Source of the DNA: an uncultured Bacteroidota bacterium
Lineage (GTDB): Bacteria; Bacteroidota; Bacteroidia; B-17B0; Aurantibacillaceae
Direction of reading: 5' to 3'
Assembly: GCA_903893815.1 (NCBI GenBank)
Contig: CAITNS010000041.1
Location: forward strand, 62,001 to 126,000
Length of the DNA: 64,000 nucleotides
Positions within the stretch are counted from its first letter, which is position 1. The number at the start of each line of letters is the position of its first letter. A model generated the notes under the pieces. That model was not told where the DNA came from and ran no database searches. It saw only the letters and a program-made list of their open reading frames with translations. Positions 9,413 to 16,341 of this stretch are shown one piece after another. The translations under genes and the position numbers were made by a program.

Positions 9413-11068
9413 TCATTTCCCAGCAGGGCTTTTAAAGAAATCATTAGCCGGCTTGTTAGCTGGATCTAATTCTTTAACCAAGTTAAAATATTCTTTAGCT
9501 TTCGCTAAATCTTTTTCTTTAGAGAAAGCAAAGTGAGAACCTAAATATAAATAAGCCTCAATTAAGTTTTGTTTTACTAAAGCTTTTTCTTCCGGTTTCA
9601 CTAAACTAATTGCTTTTTCGTAATGTGGTTTAGCTAATCCTTTTTCATCTTTTACATCTTGTTGTACATTTGCTTTACCTCTCCAAAAATAAGCAATGGC
9701 ATATGCTGGGCTAATCTGAGTTAATTTAGAAAAACAAGTATCTGCTTTTACAAATAAATCTAATGCCTCAACATCTTTTTTCTCTCTTTGTTTAGCACCA
9801 CCATCATAATAGTATGCACGACCAAACTCATACCAATCTTGAGCATTTAAGTTTTTAGGGTCACCATTCATAATTCTATTATAAGTGTCAACGGCTTTGT
9901 TATACTTTTTAGCTTTCATATATGACTTAGCAATTTCTCTTGTTACTTCATTTGCCAATTTAGGATCCACTTGCGCGGCTTTCTCCATTTCAAGAATTCC
10001 TAAGCTGTCTTTACCTGTTTTAGCTAATAAAATACCTTTGTATTTATAATCAACTGCACTGTATTTAAAATTTGAACCAGCCTTTTCGAAAAATCTGTTT
10101 ATTGCTTTTAATCCTTTTGTGTATGCAGCTGTATCTGTTTTGTTTCCAAGTTCTGCATATGAATACCCTAAATATCTGTCTAGATACATATCTTTACTAC
10201 CAGCATTTTGTGTTTTTTCGCTTTCTGTAATTGATTCTGCATATTGTTTATTGATTACCAAAAATCCTGCATAACGAATACGCGCTTCATCAGAGTTATT
10301 TAATTCTAAATATTTTTTATAACTCTCAACGGCATTAGCTTTTTGTCCTGCTAAATTATATAATTCTGCCTTCTCTCTATAAGCGGGAGCGTAAGTAGGA
10401 TCTAGATCTTGCGCTTTTTTATATAAATCTAAAGCCAATTGGTAATTACGGCCGCGTTGGTATAATTTACCTGCACGCAAAATACCTTTTGGTGATTTTG
10501 GGTTTAACTCCGAAAATTTATCGTATTGTTTAATTGCTGGTCCACCTTCTGTTGGGTTTTTTTCCAATAAGGCATCACCCATTAATAAGTAGTTCTCTGC
10601 ATTTTTTGGTTCTATTTTAATTGCAGTATTTAACAAGGCAATAGCTTCATCAAGACTCTTATTCTCTGCTTCTATATATGTTTCAGCAGTTTTACGCATT
10701 ACCTCCGTATTTTTCTTTAAACCTAACTCGCTAGCTTTAAAGAATTGGGTTTTAGCGTCAGCCGTGTTTCCTTTATACCATAACACCTTACCTAAACCAA
10801 AATAGTTTAAAGGATAGGTAGCATTTAATTCAGCACCTTTTTGGTAATACATATTTGCAGAATCTAAATCTCCTTTTTTAAAGAAGTTTTCTCCGTAGTA
10901 AAAGTAGTTGTCACCTTTATTTGCTTCTTTTGCAATTAAAGCTCTAAAGTCAGAAGCTGCTGCTGCATAACGTTCGTTATCAGTTTTTGTAATGGCGTCT
11001 TGTAACGTTTGAGCAAATGTTGAACTTGCTAAAATAAAACTTGCGCTTATTAATGTTATCTTTTTCAT
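9413..11068 (-). CDS. tetratricopeptide repeat protein, secreted
   Basis: A 551-residue protein with a signal peptide (MKKITLISASFILASSTFAQ) and a chain of TPR units through nearly the whole length. Examples are DNYFYYGENFFKKGDLDSA, AENYLLMGDALLEKNP and NAQDWYEFGRAYYYDGG. TPR arrays are protein-binding scaffolds; this one should be periplasmic or outer-membrane associated. In related genomes a TPR protein of this type is found next to exbB/exbD/tonB and a PstS-like lipoprotein, and the same set is present here. However, the TPR and PstS-like genes point toward tonB instead of following it. The exact role in TonB-linked uptake is unknown. Confidence 0.85.
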   Translation of the reverse strand: MKKITLISASFILASSTFAQTLQDAITKTDNERYAAAASDFRALIAKEANKGDNYFYYGENFFKKGDLDSANMYYQKGAELNATYPLNYFGLGKVLWYKGNTADAKTQFFKASELGLKKNTEVMRKTAETYIEAENKSLDEAIALLNTAIKIEPKNAENYLLMGDALLEKNPTEGGPAIKQYDKFSELNPKSPKGILRAGKLYQRGRNYQLALDLYKKAQDLDPTYAPAYREKAELYNLAGQKANAVESYKKYLELNNSDEARIRYAGFLVINKQYAESITESEKTQNAGSKDMYLDRYLGYSYAELGNKTDTAAYTKGLKAINRFFEKAGSNFKYSAVDYKYKGILLAKTGKDSLGILEMEKAAQVDPKLANEVTREIAKSYMKAKKYNKAVDTYNRIMNGDPKNLNAQDWYEFGRAYYYDGGAKQREKKDVEALDLFVKADTCFSKLTQISPAYAIAYFWRGKANVQQDVKDEKGLAKPHYEKAISLVKPEEKALVKQNLIEAYLYLGSHFAFSKEKDLAKAKEYFNLVKELDPANKPANDFFKSPAGK

Positions 11069-11192
11069 AGTGTTATTTGTAGATATTAAAAATACGATAT
11101 TTAAAAGTCAATTTGCCTGCCAAGCTTTATGTATCAGCAAAAACAGGGTCAAATTTAACATAATTTTAATGTTTGTGAAATCTCTTTCCTGC

Positions 11193-12110
11193 TTATTTTA
11201 ATGGAGTCATATCCACCTCAATCAATCGCTCTTCCTGTCTATTTGGAGGTAAACCTTGTTTTAAAAACATTAATTGTCCTGTTGGACCTGCAATAAAGGT
11301 TTCAATGCCTTTTCCTAAACTAAATTCTGCCGAACGACGAATAATGCAAATGGTTCTGCACAAAGGATAAGCTTTAGTAGCAATATTTGACTGATCTGGC
11401 ATATAAGCTGTTTCGTTATTCTTTTTAGAAACTGCTAATATTTTCACAGACTTTAAAAAATCTTTAGTAGTTGTATCATCTTTATCACTTAGCCAGGCAT
11501 AATCGCAAACACCTATGGCGAGGGAATTTGATGCGATTGCCTTAATTAATTCAGGTGTATTATTTACCGTAGAGCAATTATTACCAAATGTTCCATTAGG
11601 AATTAGAGAATCTTTTAATTGACGCGTACTTCCTGAATTGGCATTGTCAAACACCAACTTAATATGTTGTCCTTGAAATAAAGTGCTATCATTTCCTTTT
11701 AATAAATCAGTTAGTTCTACTAATGAAATCGTAGAATCTGCAAAACTTTTGCTAACCACAAAAGCAATAGCATCACCAGCCGCAAAGGATGTTTGAGGAT
11801 AAATGTTTTTTGCTTTGAACTGAGACAACTCTTTTTCGGTTAAAGGACGAGAAATGGCAATTACCTTACTGCTGTCATTATACAAAGCTTCTATGCATTC
11901 TTTTTCGTTAGAAGTACGCAGCGCAATGTCTGCATATTGATACGTAGTTTTAAATGTGTAAATCTGATTTTGAATATGAAGTGTTAGTCCTTCATCAAAA
12001 AATAAATTAGCCGTACCAGATGTTGGACTATCTTTTTTAGTTATATCGTCTTGCATACCACAAGAACTAAAAACGATCAGGCTTATAATTGTTCCAAAAA
12101 ATAGTTTCAT
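11193..12110 (-). CDS. PstS-like phosphate-binding lipoprotein
   Basis: A 305-residue protein with a lipoprotein signal (IVFSSCG, lipid-modified Cys near residue 17) and the PBP-like domain of the PstS family. Visible features are ALRTSNEKECIEALYNDSS, VIAISRPLTEKEL, a segment starting DNANSGSTRQLKDS (about residues 155-168, the place where the ligand-binding SGT/S motif is found) and RTICIIRRS. Classical PstS delivers phosphate to the PstCAB transporter. No pstCAB genes are in this window, and Bacteroidota versions beside tonB/TPR genes may have a different ligand or role. It lies 124 bases upstream of the TPR gene on the same strand, so they may be co-transcribed. Confidence 0.8.
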   Translation of the reverse strand: MKLFFGTIISLIVFSSCGMQDDITKKDSPTSGTANLFFDEGLTLHIQNQIYTFKTTYQYADIALRTSNEKECIEALYNDSSKVIAISRPLTEKELSQFKAKNIYPQTSFAAGDAIAFVVSKSFADSTISLVELTDLLKGNDSTLFQGQHIKLVFDNANSGSTRQLKDSLIPNGTFGNNCSTVNNTPELIKAIASNSLAIGVCDYAWLSDKDDTTTKDFLKSVKILAVSKKNNETAYMPDQSNIATKAYPLCRTICIIRRSAEFSLGKGIETFIAGPTGQLMFLKQGLPPNRQEERLIEVDMTPLK

Positions 12111-12126
12111 AATAACATTCGTTTGT

Positions 12127-12134
12127 CAAATATA
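12127..12134 (-). promoter_or_regulatory. -7 promoter element of the PstS-like gene
   Basis: Minus-strand TATATTTG, an exact match to TAnnTTTG, 16 bases before the ATG. No clear -33 TTTG was found at the usual spacing. Confidence 0.45.
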
Positions 12135-12210
12135 CAGAATAAACCAAACAGGTATTTACGACTTTATAATTGGTTGTGTATTTCAGATAAGTGGTTGAGA
12201 TAAATAATAA

Positions 12211-12648
12211 CTATTTATTGTCAGAATCTTTCCAGTTATACTTTTGCATAAACTCTTCTACTTCTTTACTAAAAGAAGTTTTAGTATGATGTTCTTCTTG
12301 ATTCTGAATATATGTCTTCACAATCTCAACTTGTGATTCGCTCACTGAAACCGCAAAATAATCGTCTTGCCAAGCAAATTTACCAGAACATAAATTGTTT
12401 TTATTGATCCAAAAAGAAGATTCTCCCTTTATGAGTTGAGCTATTTTAGCAATGCTTTGTTCTTTTCCTAAAGATACTAAACAATGTAAATGGTCTTTAT
12501 ACCCATTAACTGCTAGAATAAATATATCTTTTTCTTTACAATTTTGAATGATGTGCTGATGAACTTTTTGCCTTATCTCTTTTGTTAAATACGGCTCTCT
12601 GTTTTTTGTTGAAAAAACTATGTGAATCCATATTTTGAGATAAGACAT
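12211..12648 (-). CDS. REP-associated tyrosine transposase (RAYT, Y1/IS200-like)
   Basis: A 145-residue single-domain HUH transposase. It has MSYLKIWIHIVFSTKNREP at the N-terminus, the metal-binding HUH motif in YKDHLHCLVSL, KIAQLIKGESSFWIN, and a candidate catalytic tyrosine in KTYIQNQEEHH. RAYTs cut and join single-stranded DNA at REP hairpins and are usually domesticated single-copy genes, not complete insertion sequences. The ATG at 12648 matches the family start; a TTG eight codons upstream is unlikely. The 370 bases upstream are packed with REP-like palindromes and a tandem repeat, which supports the RAYT assignment over an IS200 element. No accessory tnpB is present. Confidence 0.9.
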   Translation of the reverse strand: MSYLKIWIHIVFSTKNREPYLTKEIRQKVHQHIIQNCKEKDIFILAVNGYKDHLHCLVSLGKEQSIAKIAQLIKGESSFWINKNNLCSGKFAWQDDYFAVSVSESQVEIVKTYIQNQEEHHTKTSFSKEVEEFMQKYNWKDSDNK

Positions 12649-12730
12649 TTGATTTGTTTTAGTTAAAGCCAAATTTAATTAATATTATTTAGATTTTTTA
12701 TTTGCTATGTTTGAATTATAGTTATGTATT

Positions 12731-13038
12731 TTGGCTAAAGCCAATGTTTTAATTTATTAGTCTCCGTCTGCTAAAGCAGACGGCAATTAGAAATATTTGA
12801 TACTATTGTATAATGCTAAAGCAGACGGCAATTAGAAATATTTGATACTATTGTATAATGCTAAAGCAGACGGCAATTAGAAATATTTGATACTATTGTA
12901 TAGTGCTAAAGCAGACGGCAATTAGAAATATTTGATACTATTGTATAGTTCTGAAACATACTACAACAATTGCTCAAATTGCGGTTGGCTTCAGCCAACT
13001 GAAAAATAATAAAGAAAAGGGTATTGGCTTTAGCCTAA
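12731..13038. repeat. REP-like palindromes beside the RAYT gene
   Basis: Several hairpins share the motif TTGGCT..AGCCAA: 12731-12744 (TTGGC, TAAA, GCCAA), 12984-12999 (GTTGGCT, TC, AGCCAAC) and an imperfect one at 13024-13038. A half-site (AAAGCCAA) lies at 12665-12672. Such short hairpins near a RAYT gene are the expected substrates of the enzyme. This accounts for the gene-free stretch 12673-13044. Confidence 0.7.
12770..12949. repeat. four tandem copies of a 45-bp repeat
   Basis: Units start at 12770, 12815, 12860 and 12905 and are nearly identical, changing only at the last bases (ATAAT, ATAGT). Each begins GCTAAAGCAGACGGCAATTA. Only the first has the full hairpin CCGTCTGC-TAAA-GCAGACGG (12764-12783), because the left arm CCGTCT lies outside the repeated unit. 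There are no spacers, so it is a tandem duplication and not a CRISPR array. Confidence 0.9.
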
Positions 13039-13044
13039 ATAAAC

Positions 13045-14289
13045 CTAGCTCAACAATCTAATAGATTTTTTAAGTGCTTCAATAAACAAATCAACTTCTT
13101 CAAAAGTATTATAAAAAGCAAAGGAGGCCCTAATAGTTCCAGGGATATTATAAAACTGCCAAAGCGGCTGCGTGCAATGATGTCCGCTTCGAACAGCAAT
13201 TCCGTATTTATCAAGTAACGTTCCAATATCAAAAGGATGAATAGTGCCAACATTAAAAGAAATGACTGAAGTTTTATGTTTAGCGTTTCCGTAAATAACT
13301 AAACCTTCAATTTCATTTAATTGCTTCGTAGCATATTCTAATAACTCGTGTTCGTGTTTTTGAATATTATCAAAACCAATTTCTGCAACATAATTAATTG
13401 CAGCTGCTAAACCAATTCCTCCTTCAATATGTGGCGTTCCTGCTTCAAATTTTAATGGCGACTCGGCAAATTCCGTTTTTTGTAAAGTAACTGTTTTAAT
13501 CGTTCCTCCCCCAGTTTGGTATGGAGGAAGTTTTTGTAACCACTCTTCTTTTCCATATAAAATACCAACGCCTGTTGGTCCAAATAATTTATGTCCACTA
13601 AACACATAAAAATCACAATCTAAATCTTGCACATCTGGTTTTAAATGAGGAACCGCTTGTGCGCCGTCAATGAGAACAGAAGCCCTCCTCTTATCCTCCC
13701 TCAGGGAGGAAGATAGAGTATGGATTTGTTGAATTATTTCTTTTACTGGATTAATTGTTCCGAGTGTATTAGAAATATGAGTGAATGCAACAAGCTTTGT
13801 TTTTGATGTAATTAATTGAGGTAGTTCTTCCAGCATTAATTCACCTGCTTCATTTATAGGAATAAATTTTAAAACGGCTTTCTTTTCTTCACACAATAAT
13901 TGCCAAGGAACAATATTGCTATGATGTTCCATTTGTGTGATGATGATTTCATCTCCTTCTGAAATATTTATCTTTCCAAAACAATGTGCCACTAAATTAA
14001 TAGATTCAGTAGTTCCTTTTGTGAAAATAATTTCACTCGCTTGTTTTGCGTTGAGGTGAAGTTGTATTGTTTTACGAGCTTCTTCATAAGCAATCGTAAT
14101 TTCTCTGCTCAGAGTATGAACCCCGCGATGTATGTTTGAATTTTGAAAAGCGTAATAATGTGAGATAGCGTCAATAACCTGTTGAGGTTTTTGTGCAGTA
14201 GCTCCATTATCAAAATACACTAAGGGCTTTCCATTTACTGTTCTTGAAAGAATAGGAAAATCTTTGCGTATTTCGTTTACATTAAACAT
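13045..14289 (-). CDS. sufS: cysteine desulfurase SufS
   Basis: A 414-residue PLP enzyme that takes sulfur from cysteine for Fe-S cluster assembly. Visible features: N-terminal VNEIRKDFPIL and GKPLVYFDNGATAQKP; ITQMEHHSNIVPWQ; VLIDGAQAVPH; the PLP lysine in YVFSGHKLFGPTG (about residue 235); and the persulfide-carrying Cys372 in RSGHHCTQPL. It is the last gene of the suf operon, three bases after sufD. Between KEIIQQIH and VLIDGAQ there are roughly nine residues more than in typical SufS (SSSLREDKRRAS). This stretch is encoded by a REP-like palindrome read in frame (13680-13718). It lies in a surface loop region, so activity is probably kept. Confidence 0.95.
   Translation of the reverse strand: MFNVNEIRKDFPILSRTVNGKPLVYFDNGATAQKPQQVIDAISHYYAFQNSNIHRGVHTLSREITIAYEEARKTIQLHLNAKQASEIIFTKGTTESINLVAHCFGKINISEGDEIIITQMEHHSNIVPWQLLCEEKKAVLKFIPINEAGELMLEELPQLITSKTKLVAFTHISNTLGTINPVKEIIQQIHTLSSSLREDKRRASVLIDGAQAVPHLKPDVQDLDCDFYVFSGHKLFGPTGVGILYGKEEWLQKLPPYQTGGGTIKTVTLQKTEFAESPLKFEAGTPHIEGGIGLAAAINYVAEIGFDNIQKHEHELLEYATKQLNEIEGLVIYGNAKHKTSVISFNVGTIHPFDIGTLLDKYGIAVRSGHHCTQPLWQFYNIPGTIRASFAFYNTFEEVDLFIEALKKSIRLLS
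13680..13718. repeat. REP-like palindrome within the sufS coding sequence
   Basis: Plus-strand AAGCCCTCC, a short spacer, then TCCTCCCT-C-AGGGAGGA (13694-13710). This has the same layout as the REP between sufB and sufC (AAGCCCCTCC, then CCTCCCC-GAA-GGGGAGG). The reading frame of sufS stays open through it. Confidence 0.65.
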
Positions 14290-14291
14290 AA

Positions 14292-15581
14292 TTAAAGTGC
14301 TTTTTCAAACAAATTCAAAACTCTTTCTTGTAAAGAAGGGATTTCAATTTTGTCAATTAATTCTTGTGCAAATGCTTGTAACAATAATTTACGAGCGCTT
14401 TCTTCGCCAATACCGCGTGCTTTTAAATAAAATAAAGCCTCTGTGTCTATTTTACCTGTTGATGTTCCGTGGGAACATTTTACATCGTCGGCGTAAATTT
14501 CTAATTGAGGCTTTGTATTAATCGTTGCATCGTCACTCATCAAAATATTTTTACTGCTTTGATAAGCGTTTGTTTTTTGTGCGTCTTTACGAACAAATAT
14601 TTTTCCGTTAAACGTTCCTACAGATTTATCTTTGGCGATGCCTTTATACAATTCATTACTTTCGCAATGAGGCATTTGGTGATCAATTAAAGTATGATTA
14701 TCGATTTGCTGCGTGCCATTAGAAATAAATAATCCATTTAAGTGTGCTTCGCAATTAGAATCAGCTAAAACAACATTGTGATTGTTACGAACTAACTCGC
14801 CACTTAATGTAAATGTGTTGTTTGTGTAATTTGAATATTTATTAATTCTTACTTGGTTTGTATTCACCGAATATGATAACGCGCCTTCGTTTTGAAATGC
14901 ATAACAAGTCAATTTTGCATTCTCTCCAACGAATTTTTCGCTGACAAAGTTTGAGAACACTTTCGCAGTACCAATATTATAAAAGCTTTCAATTAACGTA
15001 GCCTCTGCACTTGCTTGTATATTAACAAAATTACGTGTGTTAGTTACATTACTAGAATTGCCACTATTCACATAAATAACATGTAACGGCATTGGAATGA
15101 TATTGTTTTTATCCACTTGTAAAAACAAACCGTTACCTGTAAAAGCAGTGTTTAACGCTATTAAAGCATCCGTGTCAGATTTTGCTTGAGAAGATAATAA
15201 GCCTTTTTCTGAAGAAGATAATTCGTTCAAGGATTTAACCGTTAAACCTTTTACTATCATTTTCTCACTTAGTGCTTCATTATAATTTCCATTAACCACC
15301 ACTAAATTAATTGCCTCATCAATTTTAAGTGGAGCAATATCAGCTTTAGTTAATTCATTAAATGCTTGTTCAACTGATTTAAATTCTTTACGAAGAACTG
15401 CTTCGATATTACAGTATTTATAGTCTTCGTGCTTGTTATTAGGAATACCTTTATCTTCTAAATATCTGATGGCAGAAATAATTTCTGCGTCAGGCATAAA
15501 TGCAACTTTTGAAGACTTACTTTGAAGTTGGTCTAACAATGTTTGTGTAACTGCACTTTTATTATCTGCTACTAACGACAT
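14292..15581 (-). CDS. sufD: SufD, Fe-S cluster scaffold subunit
   Basis: A 429-residue beta-helix protein of the SufBCD scaffold. Conserved features include IPNNKHEDYKYCNIE near residue 50, NHTLIDHQMPHCESNELYKG, GTFNGKIFVRKDAQKTNAYQ, and the C-terminal signature YADDVKCSHGTSTGKIDTE followed by FYLKARGIGEESARKLLLQAF. SufD pairs with SufB and binds the SufC ATPase during Fe-S cluster assembly. The gene starts one base after sufC ends and stops two bases before sufS. The length is normal and no defect is seen. Confidence 0.95.
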   Translation of the reverse strand: MSLVADNKSAVTQTLLDQLQSKSSKVAFMPDAEIISAIRYLEDKGIPNNKHEDYKYCNIEAVLRKEFKSVEQAFNELTKADIAPLKIDEAINLVVVNGNYNEALSEKMIVKGLTVKSLNELSSSEKGLLSSQAKSDTDALIALNTAFTGNGLFLQVDKNNIIPMPLHVIYVNSGNSSNVTNTRNFVNIQASAEATLIESFYNIGTAKVFSNFVSEKFVGENAKLTCYAFQNEGALSYSVNTNQVRINKYSNYTNNTFTLSGELVRNNHNVVLADSNCEAHLNGLFISNGTQQIDNHTLIDHQMPHCESNELYKGIAKDKSVGTFNGKIFVRKDAQKTNAYQSSKNILMSDDATINTKPQLEIYADDVKCSHGTSTGKIDTEALFYLKARGIGEESARKLLLQAFAQELIDKIEIPSLQERVLNLFEKAL

Positions 15582-15582
15582 A

Positions 15583-16341
15583 TTAATCTGCTATTTCAAA
15601 TTCTTTTTTAATTTCATCATATCCTTTGGCTTCCATTTCTAGAGCTAATTCTTTTCCACCGCTTTTGACGATGCGACCTTTGTAAAGAATATGAACAAAA
15701 TCAGGAACGATATAATCTAACAAACGCTGGTAGTGAGTAATTAAAATAGTGGCGTTGTCTTTCGATTTCAATTTGTTAACGCCACTTGCTACAATACGCA
15801 AAGCATCAATATCTAAACCACTATCGGTTTCATCTAATATGGCCAATTTAGGATTTAACATCGCCATTTGAAAAATCTCATTGCGTTTTTTTTCTCCGCC
15901 ACTAAATCCTTCGTTTACACTACGACTTGCAAGTTTAGAATCTAACTCTACTAGTTTTGATTTTTCTTTTACTAATGCTAAGAAATCTTTAGCAGGCATT
16001 TCTTCTTGTCCGTGGTAAGCACGAATTTCGTTTAAAGCAGTACGTAAAAAATTAATATTACTTACACCTGGAATTTCAACTGGATATTGAAACGCTAAAA
16101 ATAAACCTTCTCGTGCTCTGTCTTCTGCAGATAATTCTAATAAATCTTTTCCGTTAAACGTTACTTCGCCTTCCGTTACATCATAATCTTCGCGCCCTGC
16201 TAAAACACTTGATAATGTTGACTTTCCAGAACCATTTGGTCCCATAATCGCGTGAACTTCTCCAGCTTTTACTTCTAAGTTAATGCCTCTTAATATTTCT
16301 TTATCGCCAATTGAGGCATGTAAATTTTTTATTGATATCAT
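15583..16341 (-). CDS. sufC: SufC, ABC-type ATPase of Fe-S assembly
   Basis: A 252-residue ABC ATPase with Walker A GPNGSGKST (about residues 35-43), the SufC-type signature segment VNEGFSGGEKKRNEIFQMA, and Walker B LAILDETDSGLDID. It powers the SufBCD scaffold. The ATG at 16341 is chosen because the reading frame upstream reaches only a TTG inside a REP hairpin. The 116 bases between it and sufB are filled by two inverted REP-like elements. Confidence 0.96.
   Translation of the reverse strand: MISIKNLHASIGDKEILRGINLEVKAGEVHAIMGPNGSGKSTLSSVLAGREDYDVTEGEVTFNGKDLLELSAEDRAREGLFLAFQYPVEIPGVSNINFLRTALNEIRAYHGQEEMPAKDFLALVKEKSKLVELDSKLASRSVNEGFSGGEKKRNEIFQMAMLNPKLAILDETDSGLDIDALRIVASGVNKLKSKDNATILITHYQRLLDYIVPDFVHILYKGRIVKSGGKELALEMEAKGYDEIKKEFEIAD

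Follow-up and report, generated by a model that had tools for sequence, protein, structure and literature searches.

An IS200-like transposase element with tagged REP hairpins and a polar array of half-REPs in an uncultured Bacteroidota bacterium

The 64,000-nucleotide stretch of DNA analysed here (the window), from contig CAITNS010000041.1 of an uncultured Bacteroidota bacterium, contains a Y1 transposase gene beside repetitive extragenic palindromic (REP) hairpins with an unpaired 5' tag, and a tandem array whose 45-bp units are half-REPs, that is, copies of the tag, 5' arm and loop of one such hairpin. The array is polar, and a related genome carries the corresponding empty site. The locus is best read as an IS200-class (subclass 1.2) element in single copy, placed cleanly behind a sufS-like gene. 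REPs are common short bacterial repeats whose mode of multiplication is, according to the abstract of PMC8266576, poorly understood. On our reading, a distinct REP family with its own tag accompanies a transposase subclass that had been described as REP-free, in Bacteroidota and in some further phyla. Moreover, the half-REP arrays resemble frozen steps of fixed direction, so that the copying step could be studied in vitro using a single small protein and short oligonucleotides.

The window array and its transposase

Lying upstream of the minus-strand transposase gene, the array has 4.0 copies of its period with 99% matches (Tandem Repeats Finder, TRF); the copies in register begin at 12769, 12814, 12859 and 12904, and vary at their last base alone (A or G). 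The complete hairpin CCGTCTGCTAAAGCAGACGG occurs only once, the remaining three units retaining TGCTAAAGCAGACGG. Read on the REP strand, the array runs (ATTG-CCGTCTGC-TTTAGCA-spacer) three times and then ends in the complete hairpin, whose predicted folding energy as single-stranded DNA is -9.1 kcal/mol (z -4.6), against -2.2 (z -0.6) for a half unit. A first-pass annotation of the sequence had described the Y1 transposase, the upstream TTGGCT..AGCCAA hairpins and the four 45-bp units, with the whole CCGTCTGC/GCAGACGG hairpin kept in the first unit only, and all of these are present as it described them. The sequence GGCTNNAGCC occurs three times in the window, all between 12733 and 13035 (mean 0.21 and maximum 2 in 100 shuffles). 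On the 3' side of the transposase gene we saw no hairpin in the window.

The same annotation had called the protein a REP-associated tyrosine transposase (RAYT), a label that we dropped on the strength of its motif, its hidden Markov model (HMM) scores and its fold ranking. The protein matches Pfam Y1_Tnp (PF01797, E 1e-30) and scores above the cut-off of the NCBIfam IS200/IS605 model (NF033573; 79.5 bits, cut-off 55) and below that of REP_Tyr_transpos (31.3 bits, cut-off 80). It carries DHLH, WQ and YIQNQEEHH; Y...Q..HH is found in 78 of 81 aligned proteins, and the RAYT motif Y..NP in none. By sequence, ISHp608 and ISDra2 are among the best-scoring solved chains, and RAYT 4er8 is not one of the eight matches; an AlphaFold model (29 sequences, mean pLDDT 87) matched ISDra2 and ISHp608 first and 4er8 30th. 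Motifs, HMM scores and predicted fold place the protein with IS200-like 'subclass 1.2', for which Quentin et al. 2018 (PMC6006769) give the signature DH.H, WQ and Y...Q..HH. In the parts of that paper bearing on the subclass, its table enters REP as 'no' and the elements are described as generally lacking terminal hairpins. Here, oriented hairpins are present at 74 of 80 loci (below); because the motif defines subclass 1.2, we take this as a correction of that description.

Tagged hairpins, half-REP runs and dispersed copies

We sampled relatives as the best 80 of 240 confirmed ones, from named records that include Bacteroidota as well as Acidobacteria, Ignavibacteria and Balneolaceae. A hairpin was defined as an 8-bp stem with at most one mismatch closing a TNNA loop, and its orientation was fixed by the loop, not by the tag. 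The annotation's claim that REP-like hairpins accompany the transposase holds well beyond the window: 74 of the 80 relatives have hairpins of one design within 600 nt, with an 8-bp stem, a TT[T/C]A loop and an unpaired 5' tag near ATTG. Among loci retaining at least 80% of the flank, hairpins lie within 250 nt upstream in 67 of 77 and downstream in 58 of 79; their density is 5.35 per kb within 250 nt upstream and only 0-0.07 at 600-3000 nt, while shuffles give 0.010. In 140 perfect hairpins the tag has base frequencies of A 0.91, T 0.99, T 0.80 and G 0.88, and ATTG is matched at three letters or more in 206 of 238 hairpins, compared with 14 of 238 for a mirror-side control. At least one tagged hairpin is present at 69 of the 80 loci, and hairpins on both sides at 45. 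A held-out set of 23 loci (29 minus six duplicates) has hairpins at 22, with at least three letters of ATTG in 57 of 84 hairpins. The tags of this set are more varied (ATTG 31, ATAG 13, ATAA 10, ATTA 8, others), and the tag therefore seems to differ by clade.

Half-REP arrays were surveyed in 104 loci (the 80, the 23 and the window). Arrays elsewhere follow the plan of the window array with differing arms and units, the unit lengths being 15 bp (L142), 16 (L130), 18 (L140 and L144), 19 (L123), 26 (L094), 28 (L106), 35 (L135), 40 (L073) and 48 (L080). Runs with half-REPs occur at 18 of the 104 loci, in a scan that misses L142 and leaves L133 outside runs, though TRF shows arrays at both. There are 59 orphan 5' halves against 14 3' halves, several of the latter being, as we read them, altered complete hairpins or an array read on the other strand. 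Twenty-one runs (17 loci) include complete hairpins, and in all 21 these stand at the 3' end, one per run except in L138 and L139, which have two or three. Relative to the gene, runs lie on one strand at six loci and on the other at 12, so that polarity tracks the tag and not gene direction. Within 150 nt, 5' halves are found near 23 of 333 REPs, in 22 cases on the REP's 5' side only; the exception, L130, has a second array beyond. Other perfect hairpins of these loci have no halves near them (0/81, p 0.012). On a tree of 101 of the 104 proteins (no internal stop, more than 120 amino acids), the presence of half-REP runs requires at least 11 state changes, gains and losses pooled. Repeated units break within the hairpin loop or just beyond it, in line with the annotation's suggestion that copying started in the loop. 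Arrays of whole hairpins exist too (L108, L126 and L139).

The window's own genome (3.69 Mb, 86 contigs) contains the CCGTCTGC hairpin and the array once, at the locus. A search for the tagged pattern found no dispersed tagged REPs in it (two matches, one for the control pattern; hairpin-like at the locus only), and the four matches to a 17-base half pattern with two mismatches are the four array units. Exact TTGGCTNNAGCCNA sites number three at the locus and two elsewhere; with one mismatch on both strands there are 62 matches, against 14 for a control pattern, which indicates some excess of such hairpins beyond the locus. There are four Y1_Tnp matches in this genome, including two further ones with Y...Q..HH and one with Y..NP. 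The sister species G004 has five tagged-pattern matches (control 2), hairpin-like at the locus only, and four of its six half-pattern matches lie inside its array. G014, of the same genus, has two tagged matches (control 1), an inverted pair on a different contig. In other genomes the half pattern stays near control level, the G014 match lying inside an aminotransferase-looking gene.

Tagged REPs are dispersed in some of the 27 genomes searched with the tagged and control patterns: Adhaeribacter soli has 169 matches (control 2) and the genomes of three Mucilaginibacter records have 32-33 (control 1-3). In four genomes, dispersed copies are often arranged as inverted pairs separated by 22-166 nt, with the tags on the outside. 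In a survey of 392 genomes of the phylum, of which 60 carry the transposase gene (E up to 1e-36), 35 have at least 10 pattern matches, counted by eye from the table, twice, against one genome for the control pattern. Among these 35, G167 also has 10 control matches and the matches listed for G169 are mostly non-hairpins. At least 10 matches are found in 20 of the 60 carriers and in 15 of 332 non-carriers (Fisher p 1.4e-9, a test that ignores kinship).

Possible routes to half-REP arrays

It is slightly less than an even chance, in our judgement, that half-REPs are made by a tag-reading transposase in an IS200-class REP element, each new copy going in immediately 5' of the complete hairpin; we rate this route above the others. 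The transposase would bind tag and hairpin on single-stranded DNA and nick on the 5' side of the tag; extension of the resulting free 3' end would run through tag and 5' arm and stall near the hairpin apex, and the extended end would be rejoined to the tyrosine-held 5' end. Such a nick-extend-rejoin cycle would leave the complete hairpin at the 3' end. Passages of PMC8266576 describe HUH enzymes as leaving a 3'OH able to prime or to attack the P-tyrosine bond, and a driving role of the enzyme in the growth of REP clusters was already proposed in a passage of PMC2817692. The broader proposition, that subclass 1.2 transposases read an ATTG tag and add half-REPs singly by a rolling-circle-like cycle of this kind, writing tandem repeats beside their own gene, is less probable.

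Passive slippage at the hairpin, which we regard as quite possible at somewhat less than even probability, would have a nascent REP copy fold behind the polymerase and its 3' end slip onto the exposed loop, with tag, 5' arm and loop recopied and the transposase supplying the hairpins only. It requires no special enzyme, likewise puts the complete hairpin at the 3' end, and could exploit microhomology between the TT[TC]A loop and the T-rich sequence before the tag, most usefully for units of 15-19 bp (L142, L123, L140 and L144). Yet slippage at a symmetric hairpin should yield both kinds of halves, which is why we favour a tag-reading enzyme: no 3'-half array was seen in the 104 loci, and of the 14 3' halves those in L142 and L138 are other features taken for halves, the rest being scattered. 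The same polarity is shared by eight loci whose units measure 26-49 bp, and the other perfect hairpins in the surveyed loci carry no halves. An ordinary minisatellite, in which one chance duplication was expanded by recombination and the hairpin is incidental, would suit the window array taken alone, but is already unlikely because arrays recur, with differing arms and unit lengths and with the repeated state changes on the protein tree. Highly improbable is a classical class 2 RAYT/REP system; although the hairpins, tags and inverted pairs resemble REPINs, the tag is ATTG and not GTAG, and the RAYT HMM score, the absence of Y..NP and the fold ranking all point elsewhere.

Several observations weigh against a tag-reading enzyme. 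No shared cut motif is obvious by eye at the unit junctions, which begin 2 to about 28 nt from the tag, and some show 1-4 nt of microhomology (also judged by eye), as slippage would predict. A CA cut site, taken from the guide rule in PMC8266576, was rejected: of about nine junctions inspected by eye, it suits only those of the window and L135. There are 3' halves near five of the 333 REPs within 150 nt, and the difference between dispersed REPs (halves at 1/59) and gene-side REPs (23/333) is not significant (p 0.15). Forty of the 60 carrier genomes have fewer than 10 pattern matches, so that the gene is not always accompanied by many REPs; loci and genomes are related, and the p-values are hence too small. 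Our literature search brought up, in titles, abstracts and passages, no biochemistry for subclass 1.2. With the earlier suggestion that the enzyme itself perhaps drove the amplification, polarity relative to the tag agrees, but the junctions, which share no cut motif, do not.

The element, its site and known systems

The features of the element are collected in Table 1; the transposase start that matches homologues is the ATG at 12648.

Table 1. Features of the element and its surroundings, in window coordinates
Feature	Position	Strand	Basis or remark
Whole element (transposase gene, hairpins, array)	12206..13045		between sufS-like and PBP-like genes; ends uncertain by a few bases
Y1 (HUH) transposase, IS200-like subclass 1.2 by motif, 145 aa	12211..12648	-	Pfam, NCBIfam, motifs DHLH, WQ, YIQNQEEHH
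Hairpin TTGGCTAAAGCCAA	12731..12744		upstream of start codon
Complete REP hairpin CCGTCTGC-TTTA-GCAGACGG	12764..12783	-	hairpin scan, folding of single-stranded DNA
Tandem array, period 45 bp, 4 units	12769..12947	-	TRF
5' tag ATTG of complete REP	12784..12787	-	tag consensus across relatives
Half-REP 1 (tag ATTG, 5' arm, loop TTTA)	12817..12832	-	in-register copies of array
Half-REP 2	12862..12877	-	in-register copies of array
Half-REP 3	12907..12922	-	in-register copies of array
5' tag ATTG of second REP	12978..12981	+	tag consensus
Second REP, opposite orientation, CGGTTGGCTTCAGCCAACTG, stem with one mismatch	12982..13001	+	equivalent hairpin in sister species
Hairpin TTGGCTTTAGCCTA	13024..13037		adjoins sufS-side end; present in G004 and G014 too

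The element was found at one site in three species. A sufS-like gene (Pfam Aminotran_5; the name is a label given here) is present in all 20 genomes of the genus searched. In 14 of these a PBP-like gene follows it with no transposase between, the window's own genome and G004 carry the element, and four, G014 among them, show no PBP-like gene in the stretch compared. The empty site is that of G003, where window positions 13046-15789 and 10734-12205 abut at bases 2720|2721 of L185, identity to the window being 95.6% and 89.6% on the two sides; it defines a clean insertion of about 840 bp without target duplication. Judged by sufS, the closest relatives (G009 and G003) are without the element, which does stand at this position in more distant ones; that pattern could come from seamless loss, from exchange or from repeated insertion at a single site. 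G004 has the same gene order and the same complete hairpin, with an array of 40-bp units, a different spacer and decayed arms. In G014, contigs end at this site on both sides, the sufS side carrying a direct duplication that includes the sufS end; the element's hairpins are present there, and its transposase and PBP-like gene lie on another contig. These differing states show that the element site turns over between species. The array turns over as well, as the 40-bp unit and different spacer of G004 show. The annotation had inferred recent amplification; the window array is nearly uniform, but no age can be derived from this. Its own refutation test, a constant unit number together with absence of either hairpin elsewhere, gives a mixed outcome: the CCGTCTGC hairpin is absent from the rest of the genome, but unit length and number differ between species.

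Some further observations concern these loci. The two flanks of the element (11193-12205 and 13046-15572) differ in their nearest relative among the genomes compared, a pattern that a recombination point at the element would give: G009 93.6% and G003 89.6% on the sufS side, G003 95.6% and G009 77.8% on the PBP side. Near a contig end of G014 (L193, G014:C511), the last sufS codons and two hairpins are directly duplicated at the element's site. The transposase genes of two of the 80 relatives (L084 and L129) contain internal stop codons. The genus also contains a second clade of Y...Q..HH transposases (L030-L042, including the own-genome C53 and C85 genes) with hairpins of its own, mostly 15-20 nt; several of these have a different tag-like sequence on the 5' side, for instance ATGTT or ATATT, and in one member (L042) there is an array with a period of 47-48 bp. 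L110, L131 and L137 have large arrays of 76-bp period some 1.6 kb downstream of the transposase; these combine a GTTGGGAATTATAAG...GCAATTCACAAC repeat with spacers that differ from one another, and are CRISPR-like in appearance.

The titles, abstracts and passages covered by our literature search contained no report of REPs for subclass 1.2 or of half-REP arrays. With subclass 1.2 as set out in PMC6006769, the present proteins and elements share DH.H, WQ and Y...Q..HH, a median length given as 148 amino acids, low copy number and Bacteroidetes among the phyla; they differ in that the tabulated subclass is REP-free, whereas tagged hairpins flank 69 of 80 loci here. IS608 and ISDra2 (IS200/IS605) are the closest solved relatives by sequence and fold and share the clean junction without target duplication (at one empty site); here, in contrast, REPs are clustered and, in other genomes, dispersed as pairs, and the array occurs once in its own genome. 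REPs tagged with CGTC (PMC3733652) have a similar 8-9 bp stem and 4-5 nt loop and occur partly in Bacteroidetes, but differ in tag and are reported, in the passages concerned, without association with a transposase gene. RAYT/TnpAREP systems with GTAG REPs and REPINs (PMC2817692, PMC3116915 and PMC8266576) share, in the passages describing them, the unpaired 5' tag, short stem, inverted pairs and gene-side clusters, and the RAYT REPs of Marinomonas and Haemophilus have the same TTTA or TTCA loop. Class 2 is characterized by dispersed GTAG REPs, while here the tag is ATTG, and the window's genome has a single hairpin-like tagged match, which lies at the locus (no search was made for GTAG hairpins). 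What sets the present element apart from them is its protein class, its ATTG tag and its polar half-REP arrays, which the passages of those three papers do not mention.
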